Shown here in pieces: positions 21,292-31,178 of a stretch of DNA of 51,992 nt. The notes beneath the pieces are model-generated. The model was not told the DNA's origin. It saw nothing but the letters and a program-made list of their open reading frames with translations, and made no database searches. Numbering within the stretch: the stretch's first letter is position 1; each line of letters starts with the position of its first letter. Source of the DNA: Mycoplasmatota bacterium (GTDB taxonomy: Bacteria; Bacillota_I; Bacilli_A; Izemoplasmatales; Hujiaoplasmataceae). The stretch is taken from the NCBI GenBank assembly GCA_016342455.1, contig JAEIOE010000010.1:1-51992 (forward strand), given 5' to 3'. The position numbers and the translations under genes are program-made.

Positions 21292-22224
21292 CTATATTAA
21301 AAACGATAACTTTGAAGCAAGTAATAATCCAATTACCAACGAAGCTGCATTTGCACATAGCGAATATGACATTCTTCTAAATAGTCGATACTCTTTCACG
21401 AAAATAGAAACGATAATTAGTTCTAAAATAAATACAAAGAACTCTCCTATTATGAATGTACCTATAAATGCATATCCCTCACTAGGATTATTATAAAAGA
21501 CTGATATTAAAACAATATTTAAAACTCCTTGTGAAACAATATTCATAAGTGTTATAAAAACATATGTAGTTTTTTTTCTATAACCAAATAGATATAAAAC
21601 TCCAAGTTCAATTACCAAAGTTAAAATTAGTCTCAATATAAAATTAAACCAAGTAGTAAAATTAAACCAAGGATTACCAATATAGCCAGATACTACTCCA
21701 ACATTATCTTGATTGCTTGACATGTCTACACCCGTCAAATCAAGTGTCAATCGATAATCAAACTGACTCATAGTAATTAGTTCGGAAGTTATAATGTTTT
21801 CCTCATCAGTATATAACAGTACTTTAAACTCTTTTGGAACATTTAAGTACATTTGAGCAAAAAAGCCTCTTTCATCACCATAATCATTCGCATAATAATA
21901 ATCAACATCTCCGTACAATAAGTTTGAAACAAAACCTTCAGAGTCTTGATAACTTGCCATATAGATTAGAAATTCAGTATCACTGTAATTAAAACTGTAA
22001 TCTCCCTCATCTATCCAATTTAATGCCTCGTTAATCTCCTCTTGAGATAATGAACTTTCTTTATGTATTAATAAATCAAAATTAAAGTCAACTTCGTAAT
22101 TGATTACCTCAATTCGAACATTGGTTGGTGGACCAGAATTAGCTTTCACAACCGTAATACTTAAAAAAGAAATAAGAGTAAAAAGAAATATAATTAAAAT
22201 GTTTTTTTGATAGTTTCTTTTCAT
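21292..22224 (-). CDS. Membrane protein, signal peptide plus C-terminal helices (paralogue of 25667)
   Basis: A 310-residue protein with an N-terminal signal sequence ending near ANSGPPT, an extracellular domain of about 150 residues, and four helices in the C-terminal half after residue 185. I chose the ATG at 22224 because of its strong AAGGAGG site. The upstream ATG at 22257 has none. It shares with the protein at 25667 the order signal - GPxPT - soluble region with YxDSxGF - ELxxLYxFGYRxK - final helices, so they are paralogues. They flank the two-component system. No known family; probably an envelope sensor or structural protein. Confidence 0.65.
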   Translation of the reverse strand: MKRNYQKNILIIFLFTLISFLSITVVKANSGPPTNVRIEVINYEVDFNFDLLIHKESSLSQEEINEALNWIDEGDYSFNYSDTEFLIYMASYQDSEGFVSNLLYGDVDYYYANDYGDERGFFAQMYLNVPKEFKVLLYTDEENIITSELITMSQFDYRLTLDLTGVDMSSNQDNVGVVSGYIGNPWFNFTTWFNFILRLILTLVIELGVLYLFGYRKKTTYVFITLMNIVSQGVLNIVLISVFYNNPSEGYAFIGTFIIGEFFVFILELIIVSIFVKEYRLFRRMSYSLCANAASLVIGLLLASKLSFLI

Positions 22225-22302
22225 AAATCCTCCTTTAAATAATGGATTTTTAGTCATTTCATCCAGTAAATTTTAATATGAAAATAGTTTATAAACAAGG
22301 AA

Positions 22303-22686: not shown

Positions 22687-23379
22687 TTATTCTGTTAATC
22701 CTAATAACAAATCAAATACTATTTCCATGTAGTCTAATTCCGCTTGTATATAAGTTGTCTCTACTGCATCTAAATCATCTATTATTTCTAAGAATGATTT
22801 AGAGAATACATCATATTCAGAATAAGCATATAGTCTTTCAAAGCCTGCTTGCAAGTCATTAAATCCCGCTTCTTCATCTGCAGATAAATCTCTACCTATT
22901 CTCATTTCTAGATAATCAATTCTTCTTATCGTTATTCTTTGTGGGAATTCTTCTTTTATGTTTAATAAATCCATATATCCAACAATATCATCTACTGTTA
23001 ACGTGATTCCGCTTGCTCCTGCTAATTCATTTAGTTCAGTAGCTGAATAGGATAACATATCAGATATGTTGACCTGAGAAGCTAGAGATATTTCTCCTAA
23101 GGTATCTAAAACGCCATTATCAGCTTCTAATAGTGAGTCTATATAATTATTTTTAATTAGTACTTCTAACATTAACTTAAAGTCTTCTGTTTCATCAGTT
23201 ATATAGTATAAGAGGTCGCCTTCTAATAATCCAGAAAATTCTAAATCATCAAAATCATAATATATGATACTATTATTATTATTATTCATTACAATGGTCG
23301 TTGTATATTCCATAGCCTCAGAACAGCCTAAAAGAAACAACATCGCAAATAGTGATATTACAAATAGTATTTTCTTCAT
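22687..23379 (-). CDS. Lipoprotein of the two-component envelope module
   Basis: A 230-residue lipoprotein with a clear lipobox (FLLGC, lipidated Cys at residue 19). The N-terminal region LGCSEAMEYTTTI is nearly the same as in the VWA lipoprotein at 26657 (VGCSESMEYSTTM), so the two share a leader and tether. The rest is acidic and helical with no domain I recognise. It starts 57 bases after the histidine kinase gene. Its promoter carries the same TTTGTCA-N4-TTTGACA repeat as the two plus-strand genes, so it is probably controlled by the response regulator. Confidence 0.7.
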   Translation of the reverse strand: MKKILFVISLFAMLFLLGCSEAMEYTTTIVMNNNNNSIIYYDFDDLEFSGLLEGDLLYYITDETEDFKLMLEVLIKNNYIDSLLEADNGVLDTLGEISLASQVNISDMLSYSATELNELAGASGITLTVDDIVGYMDLLNIKEEFPQRITIRRIDYLEMRIGRDLSADEEAGFNDLQAGFERLYAYSEYDVFSKSFLEIIDDLDAVETTYIQAELDYMEIVFDLLLGLTE

Positions 23380-23400: not shown

Positions 23401-23435
23401 AGTATATTTCTATATTCTGTCAAAACTATGACAAA
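23401..23435 (-). promoter_or_regulatory. Response-regulator box and -10 of the lipoprotein gene
   Basis: On the minus strand TTTGTCA (23435-23429), four bases, then TTTGACA (23424-23418): a direct repeat with an 11-base period. TATACT (23406-23401) follows 11 bases later as the -10. The box ends 38 bases before the ATG. The box starts right after the histidine kinase stop codon. Confidence 0.75.
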
Positions 23436-24836
23436 CTATAATTTCTTTAATCCTATCTTTGAAATAACATATCCATTATCATTGAATATCTTATATTCTG
23501 CTTGATAGATTTCAGCTATTTGTTTTACAATAAATAGACCAAGCCCTGTACCTTCCTTATTAAGGTTAACTCGGTAATAAGGTTCAAAGATTTTTTCTAA
23601 ATCACTTTCCTTAATTTCACCTTTGTTTTTAACCTCAATAAATACGGTATCTGCTTGTTTGTAAGTTTTTAAATATACTTTAAAATCTTCCGTATAACTA
23701 ATAGCATTCTTTAGTATATTCGTTACTAAGATAGCTAATAGTTCTTCATTGATTTGAACCTTATATTTCTTTATATCTAAACTTAGATTCACTTTAGAGA
23801 TCTTTGCTAATTCTTTGACTGAATCTAATGAGTTTTCTAAACTGATTAGATTCGCTGAATCATTTGCTTTCGCAATATCTTCTAGTTTCAATGAGTATGT
23901 TAAGTCCTTTGTCATATCTGATAGCTTTTCTAGTTGTTTTAAGACTTGCTTTAGATAAACATCTTTATTAGAAAATCTACCAACACCATCAATCATTCCT
24001 TCTACCATTCCTTTAATAACTGATACAGGAGTTTTTAACTCATGATTGATAGTCATAATTAATTCTTTCTTCTTCTTTTCTTGAAGTTGTTCAAACTCAA
24101 TATCACCTTTAAGCTTTGCATTTGCTTGATTCAGTTCTGAATAGGTCTTTTGCAAGTTAAACGCCATTTCATTTAAACTGCTGGTTAATTCTTGTAATTC
24201 ATCTTTTCTTGTAATTCTTAGTTTTTGATCAAAGTCTAATCTAGCAAGTGATTTTGCATATTTATTAATCTTCTTAATTGGTTTTGTGAAACTTCTTGAT
24301 ATAATTAATGATAAAATAATAATGGTAACGATTAAGAAGATTCCTTGATTAATCGTTATTTCTTTTAGCACAACATCAATATTATTTAAAGATTGTATTT
24401 TCGTTAATACTAATAAGTAATCACTACCTCCAAAGCGATAAATATACGAGATATTATAGATATCTTCATCTATTGTGATTGTATAACTTAGCTTTCCTTC
24501 TGTTATTAAGTCGTCATTGTCATAAATATCAATAACAAAGAAAAGAATTTCACTCTCAGTTAAAATGGTTGGTCCAACCATTTCGGTTACTGCATTGTTT
24601 TGGAACCTAATATACTGCGTTTCACTGGAAGCTTCTTCAAGCATTGAATCTACTAATGAAACATCATTTTCAAGATCTGCAGCTGAATTGATAATCGCAT
24701 TCTTTACTGCGGATATATTCTCTTCAACGTATCTATTAGAAAAGTTATTATATAAATATAACTGACTCCCTAAAAACAAGATAACAAAAGAAAAAAGGAG
24801 GGTTAAAAATGTTTTAATAAAAATACTTATTTTCAT
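23436..24836 (-). CDS. Sensor histidine kinase
   Basis: A 466-residue membrane histidine kinase. A first helix lies at about 8-29, an extracellular sensor of about 130 residues follows, and a second helix lies at about 164-181. Then come a HAMP segment (180-230), a dimerisation domain with phospho-accepting H265 in NHELKTP, and a catalytic domain with N-box (ILKNAISYTED), FEPYYR and a G-box GTGLGLFIVKQ. All catalytic residues are present. It lies 27 bases after the response regulator gene with its own AGGAGG, in one operon. The signal is unknown; the extracellular domain shows no recognised fold. Confidence 0.9.
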   Translation of the reverse strand: MKISIFIKTFLTLLFSFVILFLGSQLYLYNNFSNRYVEENISAVKNAIINSAADLENDVSLVDSMLEEASSETQYIRFQNNAVTEMVGPTILTESEILFFVIDIYDNDDLITEGKLSYTITIDEDIYNISYIYRFGGSDYLLVLTKIQSLNNIDVVLKEITINQGIFLIVTIIILSLIISRSFTKPIKKINKYAKSLARLDFDQKLRITRKDELQELTSSLNEMAFNLQKTYSELNQANAKLKGDIEFEQLQEKKKKELIMTINHELKTPVSVIKGMVEGMIDGVGRFSNKDVYLKQVLKQLEKLSDMTKDLTYSLKLEDIAKANDSANLISLENSLDSVKELAKISKVNLSLDIKKYKVQINEELLAILVTNILKNAISYTEDFKVYLKTYKQADTVFIEVKNKGEIKESDLEKIFEPYYRVNLNKEGTGLGLFIVKQIAEIYQAEYKIFNDNGYVISKIGLKKL

Positions 24837-24863
24837 TTTTATACCTCCTTTTTAATTTTTTAT

Positions 24864-25532
24864 TTATTTCTCAAACTTATATCCTATTCTATACACGGTT
24901 TTTATATAAGAACTTGTATCTCCTAGTTTTTTTCTTAAACGCTTAATATGAGTGTCTAAAGTTCTTTCATCACCAAAGTATTCATAACCCCATACTTTAT
25001 TTAAAATAGTATCACGCGATAATACAATACCCTTATTGTGGATGAACAGATTGAACAGCTTCCATTCCTTATTATTTAAATCTAATTCCTTAAAGTCACG
25101 ATAGACTTTACATTTAGCTAAGTCATATTTTAAAAGTCCATAAACTTTTAAACCTGAATTATCAGTAGTGTCATACCTTTGTAAAACAGCTTCTACTTTC
25201 TTAATCACTAATTTAGGACTATAAGGTTTTTTTACAAATTCATCAATTCCTAAGTCATAGCCTCTTATCTGATTTTCATCATCAGATAAAGCGCTAAGCA
25301 TAATGATTGGAGTATTATTAGATTCTCTGACTTCCTTACAGACATCAAATCCACTAATCCCCGGCAGCATGACATCTAATAAAATAAGGTCATATGTGTT
25401 TTCGTGGAAAAGTTCTAAGGCTGTTTCTCCATCATAAACTTGATTTATAAGTGCTTCCTTAAAAGTATCTTTTAAATAATCATATAAGATATCATTTAAG
25501 TCTGAATCATCTTCTACTATTAAAAATTTCAT
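24864..25532 (-). CDS. OmpR/PhoB-family response regulator
   Basis: A 222-residue regulator. The receiver domain (1-118) has the acidic pair D8/D9, phospho-acceptor D53 in LILLDVMLPG, S80, and K102 before Pro. The C-terminal winged helix (about 127-222) ends in YIKTVYRIGYKFE, as in OmpR/PhoB proteins. This class binds tandem direct repeats of 11-base period. Such repeats occur at the divergent gene at 25667 and at two more promoters in the block. I infer that it activates them, because the boxes sit 10-11 bases ahead of the -10, in place of a -35. Confidence 0.92.
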   Translation of the reverse strand: MKFLIVEDDSDLNDILYDYLKDTFKEALINQVYDGETALELFHENTYDLILLDVMLPGISGFDVCKEVRESNNTPIIMLSALSDDENQIRGYDLGIDEFVKKPYSPKLVIKKVEAVLQRYDTTDNSGLKVYGLLKYDLAKCKVYRDFKELDLNNKEWKLFNLFIHNKGIVLSRDTILNKVWGYEYFGDERTLDTHIKRLRKKLGDTSSYIKTVYRIGYKFEK

Positions 25533-25609
25533 ATCTTATCCTCACTATGATAAATAATAACATATTTAGAGTAAATAATAAATATGACTCAGTTAAAATC
25601 TTTTTATTA

Positions 25610-25643
25610 TTTGTCAAAGATTTGTCACTTATTAATATATAAT
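25610..25643 (+). promoter_or_regulatory. Response-regulator box and -10 of the membrane paralogue gene
   Basis: TTTGTCA (25610-25616), four bases, then TTTGTCA (25621-25627): direct repeat with an 11-base period. TATAAT (25638-25643) follows ten bases after the box. The box ends 39 bases before the ATG at 25667. It lies in the region divergent to the response regulator gene. Confidence 0.75.
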
Positions 25644-25666
25644 AGAGTATAAGGAGATGATTATCT

Positions 25667-26572
25667 ATGAAGCGTTATCGAATACTCGTATCATTCTTAT
25701 TATTGTTCTTATTATCTGGACTTGTTTATCAAACAAGAGCGGATATGGGACCAAAACCAACTTCAACTGTTCAAATAATTGGAATGGATGAAGAATACTA
25801 TTTTGATCTATTGTATGAAATCAGTGATTATGAATTTAAGGTTTTAAATGACGATGAATTGTTACAACAAATAGAATATGATTACTATAAAGATGATTTT
25901 CCTGATTTGTTAAACGGATATAGAGATAGTGATGGTTTTGCTTCTTATACTTTATATGAAGGTATTCCTCATTCTATCAAAGAAACAGAAGCCAATACTT
26001 TTCTTTGCGGATACTTTTCTCCGCCAAGTATCTTTAAAGTAGTTATCATTACTGAATCAGGTAAAATGTTTGTATCTGAGATTGTGAATAAGACAGCATT
26101 CAATGCTAGTTTTACCTATGATCTTAGTACCGTAGCTGTTAGTGATGATCAAGATTTATATTTAAATGCAGGTGCCATATCTGAAGTAGCTCCTTTTAGT
26201 ATTGTTAATTTTATATTAATGTTAGCTATACTAGTAATAGTTACTCTAGTTGTTGAGCTCCTTATCTTATACGCTTTTGGTTATAGAGATAAGAAAGTAT
26301 ATATAAAAGTAGGGATTGTTAATTTAATTACTCAAATAATTCTACAATTGCTTATTCTGTATGGATTTGTATATGTATGGAATGTTTTTGGGGCTTTTGC
26401 ATTCTTAGTATTAGGAGAAATCGGAGTATTCATTACAGAAATAATCGCTTATCGAATAATATTAAAGGAAAGATCAAAAGGTAGAGCTTTTGTTTACGCA
26501 TTGGTAGCGAACCTAGCTACTTTCATCTTAGGATTAATCAGTTTAGGTTATTTAGCTAGTATTGTAAGTTAA
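25667..26572 (+). CDS. Membrane protein, signal peptide plus C-terminal helices (paralogue of 21292)
   Basis: A 301-residue protein: signal sequence to about residue 25, then ADMGPKPTSTVQI at the start of an extracellular region of about 150 residues containing YRDSDGFAS, and four helices after residue 180 including ELLILYAFGYRDKKVY. The order and the FGYR motif match the protein at 21292. It is the gene next to the response regulator, divergently transcribed, with a repeat box upstream. It probably sits in the cell membrane with its soluble part outside. Function unknown; an envelope-stress or surface role is inferred from context. Confidence 0.7.
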   Translation: MKRYRILVSFLLLFLLSGLVYQTRADMGPKPTSTVQIIGMDEEYYFDLLYEISDYEFKVLNDDELLQQIEYDYYKDDFPDLLNGYRDSDGFASYTLYEGIPHSIKETEANTFLCGYFSPPSIFKVVIITESGKMFVSEIVNKTAFNASFTYDLSTVAVSDDQDLYLNAGAISEVAPFSIVNFILMLAILVIVTLVVELLILYAFGYRDKKVYIKVGIVNLITQIILQLLILYGFVYVWNVFGAFAFLVLGEIGVFITEIIAYRIILKERSKGRAFVYALVANLATFILGLISLGYLASIVS

Positions 26573-26598
26573 AAATATTGAAGTTTTTTATTTTTTGC

Positions 26599-26633
26599 TT
26601 TGTCAAAACTTTGACACAATCAATTGATAAACT
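26599..26633 (+). promoter_or_regulatory. Response-regulator box and -10 of the VWA lipoprotein gene
   Basis: TTTGTCA (26599-26605), four bases, then TTTGACA (26610-26616), again with an 11-base period. A -10-like TAAACT (26628-26633) follows 11 bases later. The box ends 40 bases before the ATG at 26657. Confidence 0.7.
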
Positions 26634-26656: not shown

Positions 26657-28174
26657 ATGAAAAAATTAATGTTTATATTTTTATTAACAATAGGATTATT
26701 TTTAGTAGGTTGTTCAGAATCTATGGAGTATTCAACTACTATGCTAGCTTATAATATTGCCATAGAAGCTGAAAGCAATGAGGAATATGCCGATATATCT
26801 GAAAACAAGTTTATCAGTGTAAGTGATATGCCTGTTTCCACATTCTCAGCGGATGTAGATACTGCAGCTTATTCCATTATTAGAAAAAAATTAATGCAAG
26901 ATGAATTACCAAATAGAAATGCTGTAAGAATTGAAGAGATGCTTAATTACTTCACATATGACTTAGATACACCAATTGGTAATGAAGTCATACATGTTAC
27001 AAAGGAATTAAGTGACGCTCCATGGAATGAAGATCATCAATTATTAATGTTAGGATTAAAAACAGAGGATATTATATATGAAAACGCAATACCTTCTAAC
27101 TTAGTATTTTTATTAGATGTATCTGGTAGTATGAATAGTGCTGATAAATTACCTTTATTAAAACAAGCTATTATTCTATTAGTGGGTGAATTAAGAGCAT
27201 CAGATAGAATTTCTTTAGTTGTCTACGCTGGTTCAGCAGGTGTTGTCTTAGACGGCGCAGATGGCTCAGATAAAGAAAGTATTATTGACGCAATCAATTC
27301 ATTAGAAGCTGGCGGTTCTACTGCTGGTGGAGAAGGTATCAACCTTGCATATAATGTAGCAGCTACTAATTATATCGAAGGTGGAAATAATAGAGTGATC
27401 TTAGCTACTGATGGAGACTTTAATGTTGGCGTATCAAGTGATGCTGCTTTAGAGAGATTAATCACTCAAAAGAAAGAATCTGGAATATTCTTATCAGTTT
27501 GTGGATTTGGTACTGGTAACTTAAAAGATAGTAAGATGGAAACATTAGCTGACAAAGGCAATGGAGTATATTACTATATAGATAATCTATTAGAAGCTAA
27601 GAAAGTCTTTGTGGAAGAAATGGGTGGAACCTTATTAACTGTAGCTAAAGATGTTAAGTTACAAGTTGAGTTTAATCCCGCTTTAGTAAAAGGATATCGT
27701 TTAATCGGTTATGAAAATAGAATTTTAGATTATAATGACTTTAATAATGATGAAGTGGATGCTGGAGATATCGGTGCCGGACACGAAGTCATTGTATTAT
27801 ATGAAATTATTCCATTTGGTTCCGATGAAGTGATTGATGAAGCTACTTACGAAATACCTGAAACATTAAAGTATGATGGAGAAAACTACTTAGATCAAAT
27901 GCTAACATTATCAATAAGATATAAAGCACCTGATTCTGATGTATCTGAAAAGAAAGATTATGTAGTATATGATTCAGATTTTACAGAAACACCATCAGAT
28001 AATTTCTTGTTTGCTTCAAGTGTCGCTGAGTTTGGAATGTTATTATTAGATAGTGAATTTAAATATAATTCTAGCTATAATGCAGTCATTGCGAGAGCTA
28101 CTGATGTATACAACGATGATTATAAAGAAGAATTTATTGAATTAGTAAGAATAGCACAAAGATTACAAGATTAG
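26657..28174 (+). CDS. VWA-domain lipoprotein, YfbK-like
   Basis: A 505-residue surface lipoprotein. The lipobox is FLVGC with Cys19. Residues about 48-135 form the YfbK-type N-terminal domain (FSADVDTAAYSIIR). The von Willebrand A domain starts near residue 146 with the full metal-ion-dependent adhesion site: D154-V-S-G-S158, a Thr in GGSTAGGEG, and Asp in ATDGDFNVG. The C-terminal 150 residues match the DUF3520-like tail. I chose the ATG at 26657, because AAGGAG (26642-26647) fits this start and not the upstream ones. It likely binds a protein ligand through Mg2+ outside the cell. The leader is shared with the lipoprotein at 22687. Confidence 0.85.
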   Translation: MKKLMFIFLLTIGLFLVGCSESMEYSTTMLAYNIAIEAESNEEYADISENKFISVSDMPVSTFSADVDTAAYSIIRKKLMQDELPNRNAVRIEEMLNYFTYDLDTPIGNEVIHVTKELSDAPWNEDHQLLMLGLKTEDIIYENAIPSNLVFLLDVSGSMNSADKLPLLKQAIILLVGELRASDRISLVVYAGSAGVVLDGADGSDKESIIDAINSLEAGGSTAGGEGINLAYNVAATNYIEGGNNRVILATDGDFNVGVSSDAALERLITQKKESGIFLSVCGFGTGNLKDSKMETLADKGNGVYYYIDNLLEAKKVFVEEMGGTLLTVAKDVKLQVEFNPALVKGYRLIGYENRILDYNDFNNDEVDAGDIGAGHEVIVLYEIIPFGSDEVIDEATYEIPETLKYDGENYLDQMLTLSIRYKAPDSDVSEKKDYVVYDSDFTETPSDNFLFASSVAEFGMLLLDSEFKYNSSYNAVIARATDVYNDDYKEEFIELVRIAQRLQD

Positions 28175-28251: not shown

Positions 28252-31110
28252 TTAATTAAGTTCAACTTTGGTAAATGAATTGCTCGATACTTCTACCGAA
28301 TCATATAAGCCATTTGAATCATAGAAGTTAACGGTCTTTGATTCATCGCTGACATTCCAAATCATTGCATATACTGTTTCATCTTCTGTTATATAAACGG
28401 TAGAGGATACTCCTATTTGGATTTCCATCCAAATATCACTGTTTCTTCTCCCCAAAGACTCTAAAGCGTGAATCATCCAATAAGTTCCAACTAGTTCCGC
28501 TGTGTAATCATCATTCAATATTTTAGTTGAATCAAATTCTTGTATCGCCACACTTGAGTCGACGATAGCTTGTATCGCCCACATATTAGAATACCAAGTA
28601 TCTATTACTCCATCTTTAGCAGCTAAATACGTTGCATATATAGAACTAAATTTAGTATAATCATCATCGTTTAATGCATAATTTGTTAAGTATTCTCCTG
28701 TTGGTAACCATTGAATACCATAAATGAAAGTAGGATTAGCCCCAAACCATGTGGCGTAATCATGCTTCCCTCCCCAAATCATTCCAGCAACATCAACATA
28801 GTCACCGAATTTAGGATCCCAGTTTTCTTCATCATAATCAAACCAGTATTCCTTAATAGCACTTATTTCTGTTACAAATCCATAAATAGCAGCTTCCATT
28901 CTTTCAGTATCCTCAGTAGCTAATGCCCATAAATATCCTGCATTCCAAGAATTTAGCGCTTCTGAAGTAGATTCTAAGTTGTTTCCCTCTGCAAACGTTC
29001 CAAATCCATGTGCCCAAGAGTGTCCTGCCCAAGCATCAAAGTTTCTTAAGTATTGAAAATCAGAGCTATTCTTTGTTGGATACATATAATCATCCAATAA
29101 CAAATCGACCATATCTGCGTAATCTGTTACAAATGAACTGTCATACATCGCTAATACAGATGCTGCATAGATTAAGTATCCATGAGTAAATGAATGGTCT
29201 GATAAAGTAGAAGCTGTCGCGAAGTCATCATTAGAGTAATATACACTTCCCCAAGCATTATTATAGAATAAGAATTTTTCATCTGAGGAATTGCTATAAG
29301 TAAACCAATCAACTAATAATGTTCTTAGTTTCGCAATTAACTGAAACTCTATGGCTGTTTCTCCTGCTTGGTTCGCTATAATAATTCCTTGAGCTAAAGG
29401 ATATAATGCTTTAGAATTCCAATAAGGCCCTTCATTATTATAAAAACCATCAGGATCTTGTGTATCAATTTCTGTATTTAAACTATTTAAGTAAGTAACT
29501 AAATCTGTTTCAGAATATTCTGAATTATCTGGTAATGTATATCCTGGTAATAAGCCATTGAATGATAATTCTGTTTGAAAGTAATTCCCTTCCATCACTT
29601 TTAACGTTCCTCTTACTGTTCTATATGAGTATTCAGTTAGTGAAGCATCTGAATACTTATAATGATGTGGCATTAAAGCGAGAACTGTATTCATACTTAA
29701 ATCTGTTCTTAAAGATTGTGTATTAAAGAGGTAATCTGTATATACCATACTTGCTTGATAATCTATTTGGAAATCTGTTATCGAGTTATTAATTAAGTTG
29801 TAACCATGGTTATGATAATATGCCGCTTCTGATAAATCATTAATCGCAACTACAGAAATAAAATTACCATCCCCTAAGCTCATACTAAGAACATTATTGT
29901 TCATCGTAAATACTGTATTTAGTGGTGTATTTACTAAATAGTATTTATCAGAATATTCAGGTTGTCCAACAGTTGCCGGTGGTGCATTATCATATCCAGA
30001 ATGTCTATGAACATATTTAATGATAATTGCATCTCCAGAATGAGAGTTTGCGTTAATTAAGTTTCCTGCTAAATCATAAAACTCCACTAAAGCTCCTGAT
30101 TCCATCGCTATCGTTAACGCTTCTAAATTTTCAGTTTCCGCAAATATATAAGGAGAACCTTGAACTAAAGAAACTACCACTTCATCTATATTAGAACCAT
30201 TATTTCTCATAGCTACCTTAACTGAGTTATCAGAATAATCAATTACTTCAGTCACGTATCCAAGGTTTAAATCACTTGATTTTAAATATAAGTCTTTTAT
30301 TGCAATTGGAAACTGAGCAATCGTTTGAACGTCATTTACATTCCAGTATTGAACAAAACCATCCTGCGGATTGGTTATTTCCATTCCTTCATTAGAAAAA
30401 GCTACTCTTAAAGGGTTGGTATATATTCCATTCCCGCCTCCGTAGTTCTGTACTAATAGGCTTGTCCACCAACCAGATGAAGGTATTGCATCAACTAATA
30501 AATTGTTTGCTAGATAGTTTGGATTGACAGGATGTGCAATACTAGAGTTAGAACCTGTATAGTAAGATCCTTCTCCGGCACTAATTATCCCGTTTAACCC
30601 AACAGGTCTTTGAATATTTGATTCTATATAAGTACCATTTATCACATTGATTGTTCTAGTGGCTGATAATGTATCTCCATTATAATTTATATAATAGTGT
30701 AGTTGGTAAGTTCCTATACTACCAAAATCAACAGCACCAGAAACATTTACAAAAGCAGTGATATCCGTTCCAAATTCAGATTCAGCACTTACATCATTCA
30801 TCACATTAAAATAATGTCCTAGTATCACATTAGTATCTTCAATACCAGAAATTGTGGCTATCGTATCCTCAACTGGAATCGTTGTGATTTCAGTTGTAGT
30901 ATTTTGTGTTGTAATTGGTATGGTTGTTGTTTGTATAGTCGTTTGAGTGCTTGTTTCAGCACTTGTTTGAGTAGTTGTTGAATCTTGAGTTGTAGAAGAA
31001 ATCAAAGTTGTATCTGTTTGATAAACTGATGTTGTAACACTGGTTCCTTCAGTACAGCTAACTAAAAATAGTGATATCGCAATAAATATCCATATAAGAT
31101 GTTTTTTCAT
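28252..31110 (-). CDS. GH81 endo-beta-1,3-glucanase lipoprotein
   Basis: A 952-residue lipoprotein (lipobox FLVSC near residue 19). A Thr/Ser-rich linker follows (about residues 22-77), then an Ig-like domain (about 78-155), and a glycoside hydrolase family 81 catalytic region to near residue 870. The family signature is clear: DAWAGHSWAHGFGTF followed by NNLESTSEALNSWNAG, which holds the acid (Asp) and the two Glu of the active site. A small C-terminal beta domain ends the protein. It should cleave beta-1,3-glucans such as laminarin or callose outside the cell. I chose the ATG at 31110 because AAAGGAG precedes it. The promoter has an extended -10 and a LacI/CcpA-type palindrome. Confidence 0.88.
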   Translation of the reverse strand: MKKHLIWIFIAISLFLVSCTEGTSVTTSVYQTDTTLISSTTQDSTTTQTSAETSTQTTIQTTTIPITTQNTTTEITTIPVEDTIATISGIEDTNVILGHYFNVMNDVSAESEFGTDITAFVNVSGAVDFGSIGTYQLHYYINYNGDTLSATRTINVINGTYIESNIQRPVGLNGIISAGEGSYYTGSNSSIAHPVNPNYLANNLLVDAIPSSGWWTSLLVQNYGGGNGIYTNPLRVAFSNEGMEITNPQDGFVQYWNVNDVQTIAQFPIAIKDLYLKSSDLNLGYVTEVIDYSDNSVKVAMRNNGSNIDEVVVSLVQGSPYIFAETENLEALTIAMESGALVEFYDLAGNLINANSHSGDAIIIKYVHRHSGYDNAPPATVGQPEYSDKYYLVNTPLNTVFTMNNNVLSMSLGDGNFISVVAINDLSEAAYYHNHGYNLINNSITDFQIDYQASMVYTDYLFNTQSLRTDLSMNTVLALMPHHYKYSDASLTEYSYRTVRGTLKVMEGNYFQTELSFNGLLPGYTLPDNSEYSETDLVTYLNSLNTEIDTQDPDGFYNNEGPYWNSKALYPLAQGIIIANQAGETAIEFQLIAKLRTLLVDWFTYSNSSDEKFLFYNNAWGSVYYSNDDFATASTLSDHSFTHGYLIYAASVLAMYDSSFVTDYADMVDLLLDDYMYPTKNSSDFQYLRNFDAWAGHSWAHGFGTFAEGNNLESTSEALNSWNAGYLWALATEDTERMEAAIYGFVTEISAIKEYWFDYDEENWDPKFGDYVDVAGMIWGGKHDYATWFGANPTFIYGIQWLPTGEYLTNYALNDDDYTKFSSIYATYLAAKDGVIDTWYSNMWAIQAIVDSSVAIQEFDSTKILNDDYTAELVGTYWMIHALESLGRRNSDIWMEIQIGVSSTVYITEDETVYAMIWNVSDESKTVNFYDSNGLYDSVEVSSNSFTKVELN

Positions 31111-31140
31111 TTTGGCTCCTTTAAGCTTTGGTTTTAAACT

Positions 31141-31178
31141 ATTATAACATAAATTAGTCAAAACCGAAAACGTTTTCG
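31141..31178 (-). promoter_or_regulatory. GH81 promoter with LacI/CcpA-type operator
   Basis: On the minus strand an extended -10 TGTTATAAT (31149-31141) follows the perfect 14-base palindrome CGAAAACGTTTTCG (31165-31178), which overlaps the -35 region. The palindrome core AAACGTTT is typical for LacI-family regulators, including CcpA sites. Repression by a sugar-responsive regulator is inferred. Confidence 0.65.

Follow-up and report, generated by a model that had tools for sequence, protein, structure and literature searches.

A two-component system of Izemoplasmatales that very probably turns on its neighbouring surface-protein genes from promoters with an 11-bp direct-repeat box

Several regulators of the OmpR family, among them WalR/YycF and RpaB, have sites with 11-bp direct repeats. 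The locus described here shares with them the regulator subfamily and the site geometry, whereas half-site sequence and regulon differ. The Pho box was originally defined as two 7-nt repeats, 4 nt apart, on which PhoB is bound head-to-tail (PMC4415409), and an activator-dependent promoter on which a regulator of the OmpR/PhoB type is bound as such a head-to-tail dimer is established for PhoB (PMC4415409; PMC3348028). Sites of the same build, i.e. 7-nt direct repeats with a 4-nt spacer that overlap the -35 position upstream of the -10, characterize E. coli PhoB and Bacillus PhoP, and they recur at our locus, where the core TGTCA-N6-TGTCA is shared with the E. coli repeat CTGTCAT and the regulator has a PhoB-type DNA-binding domain. 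Unlike in the Pho system, the predicted targets encode surface lipoproteins and a membrane protein and are not phosphate genes. In Helicobacter pylori, the sites of HP1043 (HsrA) consist of 11-bp-spaced direct repeats that replace the -35 element immediately upstream of the -10, a further likeness, but HP1043 is an essential orphan regulator that has no kinase partner and reads the repeat TTTAAG (PMC5253667).

The window, i.e. the whole stretch of 51,992 nucleotides that was analysed, belongs to a 2.43-Mb genome of the order Izemoplasmatales. Its central module comprises, on the minus strand, a small lipoprotein of 230 aa with the lipobox LLGC (22687-23379), a sensor histidine kinase with HAMP, HisKA and HATPase_c domains (23436-24836) and a response regulator (24864-25532), followed on the plus strand by a membrane protein of 301 aa with a DMGPKP N-terminus (25667-26572) and a VWA lipoprotein (26657-28174). 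The last has a lipobox, the MIDAS motif DVSGS and the YfbK architecture, with vWF_A N-domain, VWA and YfbK_C (PF12450, PF00092, PF12034) all above cut-off. The gene calls of an earlier sequence-only reading, namely lipoprotein, kinase, OmpR-type regulator, membrane paralogue and VWA/YfbK lipoprotein, hold when compared with Pfam, sequence identity and lipobox. The small lipoprotein matched nothing in Pfam or NCBIfam, and its homologues in the order occur only adjoining this kinase. The predicted structures of the small lipoprotein and the kinase (mean pLDDT 44 and 50, respectively) were too low in confidence to use. The two lipoproteins have a near-identical mature start, CSEAMEYTTT and CSESMEYSTT (encoded within 23281-23379, minus strand, and 26657-26755, plus strand), and are unrelated over the rest of their length.

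Three direct-repeat boxes, all exact matches to the pattern, precede the small lipoprotein (TTTGTCATAGTTTTGACA, TTTGTCA-TAGT-TTTGACA, 23418-23435, minus strand), the membrane protein (TTTGTCAAAGATTTGTCA, TTTGTCA-AAGA-TTTGTCA, 25610-25627, plus strand) and the VWA lipoprotein (TTTGTCAAAACTTTGACA, TTTGTCA-AAAC-TTTGACA, 26599-26616, plus strand), which are the predicted members of the regulon. The repeat period is 11 bp in each, and the box ends 38, 39 and 40 bp before the respective ATG. Past the boxes follow the -10 hexamers TATACT (23401-23406, minus strand) after 11 bp, TATAAT (25638-25643, plus strand) after 10 bp and TAAACT (26628-26633, plus strand) after 11 bp. These measurements reproduce the boxes, the period, the distances to the ATG and the 10-11 bases to the -10 given by the sequence-only reading, and its remark that no other paired box was noticed in the window was confirmed for exact matches. 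With three mismatches allowed, the window gave as many matches as shuffled sequence. A paralogue of the membrane protein at 21292-22257, which is 30% identical, has no box.

The earlier reading would have been undermined by a box that is frequent at random places in the genome. Our scan of the whole 2.43-Mb genome for TTTGWCA-N4-TTTGWCA returned exactly three copies, all in the window, and no exact match for the reversed pattern used as control, so that the reading withstood this check. A first-order Markov model of equal composition gives about 1.6 copies per 2.43 Mb, so that a single copy or the bare count is unremarkable; what counts is the clustering of the three boxes within 3.2 kb together with their placement in promoters. 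Three copies within 3.2 kb, each in a promoter, correspond to a Poisson estimate of approximately 1e-9, for a motif that was defined after being seen. With one mismatch, seven further places in the genome compare with 10 control matches, and most of the seven lie inside coding sequence, which gives no evidence for additional members of the regulon.

The comparison among relatives is a strong argument. Kinase orthologues (E <= 1e-60) were found in nine of 90 searched genomes of the order, several of the compared genomes being incomplete drafts; the host is one of the nine, and in the other eight, which are the same eight that encode the regulator orthologue, the kinase is 49-62% identical. Directly behind the kinase, each of the nine genomes encodes a member of one divergent lipoprotein family, and each time its promoter has two TTTGTCA-like repeats with an 11-bp period and a -10 at 11 bp, the box being placed in intergenic sequence or overlapping the end of the kinase gene. 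Across the regulator, a VWA or DUF4349 lipoprotein gene with repeats is found in G000, G023, G070, G045, G016, G068 and G035, of which G023 is a genome of the window's family. Where such a divergently transcribed lipoprotein gene abuts the regulator, the box is present in 6/6 genomes, as it is before the window's VWA gene, and five of these six (G070, G045, G016, G068 and G035) have four repeats in 11-bp register; the arrays of G016 and G068 were read by eye and then scored. In the window, the membrane protein gene with its own box lies between the regulator and the VWA gene, and the orthologue in G016, situated on another contig, has TCTGTCA-CGGT-TTTGTCA at the same place. In this membrane-protein family, both regulator-encoding genomes that have the gene also have the box (2/2), which is missing from all 12 orthologues of genomes that do not encode the regulator. 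Further boxes, remote from the locus, stand before a second VWA lipoprotein gene in G016 (L089) and, as a four-repeat version, before a DUF4349 lipoprotein gene in G045 (L173). VWA genes of other phyla (Lachnospiraceae, Bacteroidales) have no box nearby, and the box is confined to the Izemoplasmatales locus in this respect.

These data also bear on the idea that the boxes reflect shared ancestry only, i.e. that a segment of promoter plus signal peptide was duplicated among neighbours and carries no regulatory meaning. The leader GCSE(A/S)MEY(T/S)TT common to both window lipoproteins, with 55% identity over 33 residues, could be taken in its favour. However, the promoters differ outside the box, relatives that lack the common leader still have boxes at both genes, and the box is kept although the small lipoproteins of the relatives are only 19-26% identical to the window protein. 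Already disfavoured by the conservation across the order, this explanation has next to no probability in our view.

Alignment of 20 promoters defined the geometry more closely. A -10 with at least 4/6 matches stands exactly 11 bp after the last repeat in 19 of them, the sole exception being the window's membrane protein gene with TATAAT at 10 bp, and at the other gaps scanned such hexamers were found in 0-7 of the 20. The 11-bp phase is sharp, with 6.15/7 matches in register and at most 3.7 out of register. Over 49 repeats from nine genomes the unit is TTTGTCA, with A at position 5 in only three, an invariant CA and a core TGTCA that is conserved as T48 G48 T45 C49 A49; the background set for these repeat counts includes loci chosen for having the box, which biases the exact background rate upward. 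No -35 element was recognisable at 16-18 bp in the 20 promoters, where position scores were at chance (mean <= 1.7/6). Taken as ordinary -35 elements (TTGACA/TTGTCA) whose likeness stems from the promoter consensus and an AT-rich background, the repeats would be most plausible at the small lipoprotein, where a perfect TTGACA lies within the last repeat and AATAAT follows 17 bp further on. Since an acceptable -10 at 16-18 bp exists in only some of the 20 promoters, as opposed to 19 at 11 bp, and repeats two to four, which keep the 11-bp period exactly, would be left unexplained, we regard this as very improbable.

Hence, the promoters show direct repeats one helical turn apart that end 10-11 bp before the -10 and lack a -35, which is the promoter geometry of activators of the OmpR/PhoB type. 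The sequence-only reading had likewise seen the geometry of activator sites for such a regulator, and the comparative support for it is strong, because the same box, register and -10 distance are found at orthologous and remote genes in nine regulator-encoding genomes. A regulator that mainly represses, occupying the promoter and blocking RNA polymerase, would also fit a site overlapping the -35 region, where repressors act too. But there is no -35 element to block, and both the fixed 11-bp gap to the -10 and the arrays of four repeats are as in activator promoters of the family (PMC4415409; PMC5253667), which makes repression quite unlikely as the main mode of action.

The regulator itself, placed at 24864 and assigned to the OmpR/PhoB type in the earlier reading, indeed has Response_reg and Trans_reg_C domains (PF00072 and PF00486, both above cut-off) and is the predicted reader of the boxes. 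Its phospho-acceptor set E7/D8, D53 and K102 is invariant across nine orthologues, as are R, T, D, T, H, I and R of the recognition helix RTLDTHIKRLR. At the equivalent positions of the recognition helix, PhoB R193, T194, H198 and R201 contact the Pho box, and these contacts would fit the TGTCA core common to both sites. Every NCBIfam equivalog score of the regulator lies below its cut-off, including that of the curated PhoB family TIGR02154 (171.5 bits, cut-off 296.2). Elsewhere in the genome (C92; gene names read from the translations, except for PhoU), the operon pstS-pstC-pstA-pstB-phoU is present in full, with a regulator and a kinase of its own behind it, and lacks the exact box, which in the whole genome occurs in the window only. 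Identity with the phosphate system was rejected on account of this separate operon, the score far below the PhoB cut-off and the missing box. Control of the regulator gene by the box is likewise unsupported: the regulator promoters of G089 and G072 lack a box, and their -10 region is of a different, TATTCT-like kind, and the box nearest to the regulator start in the window, at 77 bp, points to the membrane protein gene.

What was observed is the box with its geometry, how it is conserved and that it goes together with the regulator; binding, activation, signal and physiological role are inferred from this as follows. The kinase would sense an extracytoplasmic signal and phosphorylate the regulator, two molecules of which would then be bound head-to-tail, one on each 7-bp repeat and a helical turn from one another. 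They would thereby occupy the -35 position, 10-11 bp separating the downstream repeat from an ordinary -10, and could bring the vegetative RNA polymerase to promoters devoid of a -35. As putative targets we regard the lipoprotein whose gene directly follows that of the kinase, the divergently encoded membrane protein and the VWA/YfbK lipoprotein, and the four repeats usual at the divergent surface-protein promoter of relatives would give room for two dimers. That the phosphorylated OmpR/PhoB-type regulator binds the boxes head-to-tail at the -35 position and activates a small surface-protein regulon is in our judgement highly likely; the pair very probably turns on its neighbour genes, and the finding is supported by sequence comparison across an order of bacteria. 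The role may be the remodelling or guarding of the cell surface. More tentatively, the small lipoprotein might be induced to serve the kinase as an accessory or feedback sensor, forming with the VWA, DUF4349 and membrane proteins an undescribed envelope-sensing circuit of Izemoplasmatales, in which a Pho-box-like site is read independently of phosphate control.

The box may, moreover, not be exclusive to the window regulator. In genomes with no regulator orthologue found, 17 exact boxes were listed, 10 of them in coding sequence and four with a -10, of which G059 has two and G003 and G006 have one each. In these three genomes the box may be read by another regulator, or the genes are missing from the drafts. 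The two exact boxes of G059 (L097:1726-1743 and L097:12704-12721) are separated by 11 kb; either is followed after 10 bp by a perfect TATAAT, and one precedes a small lipoprotein gene. A two-gene ABC-FtsX operon in the host genome (L256, C76:13017-15251) has ATTGTCG-CATG-GTTGTCA 11 bp before a -10-like hexamer; the corresponding operons of G023 and G003 (L093 and L080) have exact boxes, and in G003 no regulator orthologue was found.

One could therefore ask whether the window boxes are read by another regulator of the same genome (C21, RTVDTHIKRLREK; that of the C58 exopolysaccharide operon, RTVDTHIKQLRAK; the PhoB-like one of C92, RTVDVHIKEIRRK), into whose regulon the module genes were recruited. 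The near-identical recognition helices of these regulators would agree with that, and so would the ABC-FtsX boxes (degenerate in the host, also in G023 and G003) and those boxes of G059, G003 and G006 that have a -10, since the regulators found in these three genomes are only approximately 42% identical. However, the neighbourhoods of the C58 and C21 regulators and of their relatives gave no core box, regulators of the C58 type are widespread among genomes that have no box, and the surface-gene boxes track the window regulator, with a box beside the kinase-regulator pair in 9/9 genomes. We consider such recruitment unlikely and retain the window regulator as the probable reader. In many genomes of the order, the paralogous C58 regulator (L261, C58:18892-19539), whose helix is RTVDTHIKQLRAK, neighbours genes for exopolysaccharide control that appear to be CpsB/CpsD-like.

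The arrangement is of a known type, and the particular circuit appears to be undescribed: a literature search returned nothing on this two-component system in Izemoplasmatales, nothing for DUF4349 combined with two-component and lipoprotein, and only unrelated work for YfbK combined with two-component. The analysis offers a regulon for a two-component system in this order of largely uncultured mollicute relatives, together with a concrete and testable predicted binding motif, TTTGTCA with an 11-bp period and 11 bp to the -10. Furthermore, the uncharacterised surface families of the YfbK-type VWA protein, DUF4349, the DMGPKP membrane protein and the small lipoprotein would be joined in a single control circuit, leaving fewer guesses about their function. 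Beside the module, at 28252-31161, the window encodes a GH81-type lipoprotein with a bacterial Ig-like domain, a 56% identical relative of which is found in G005 (L076) next to a relative of the membrane protein.
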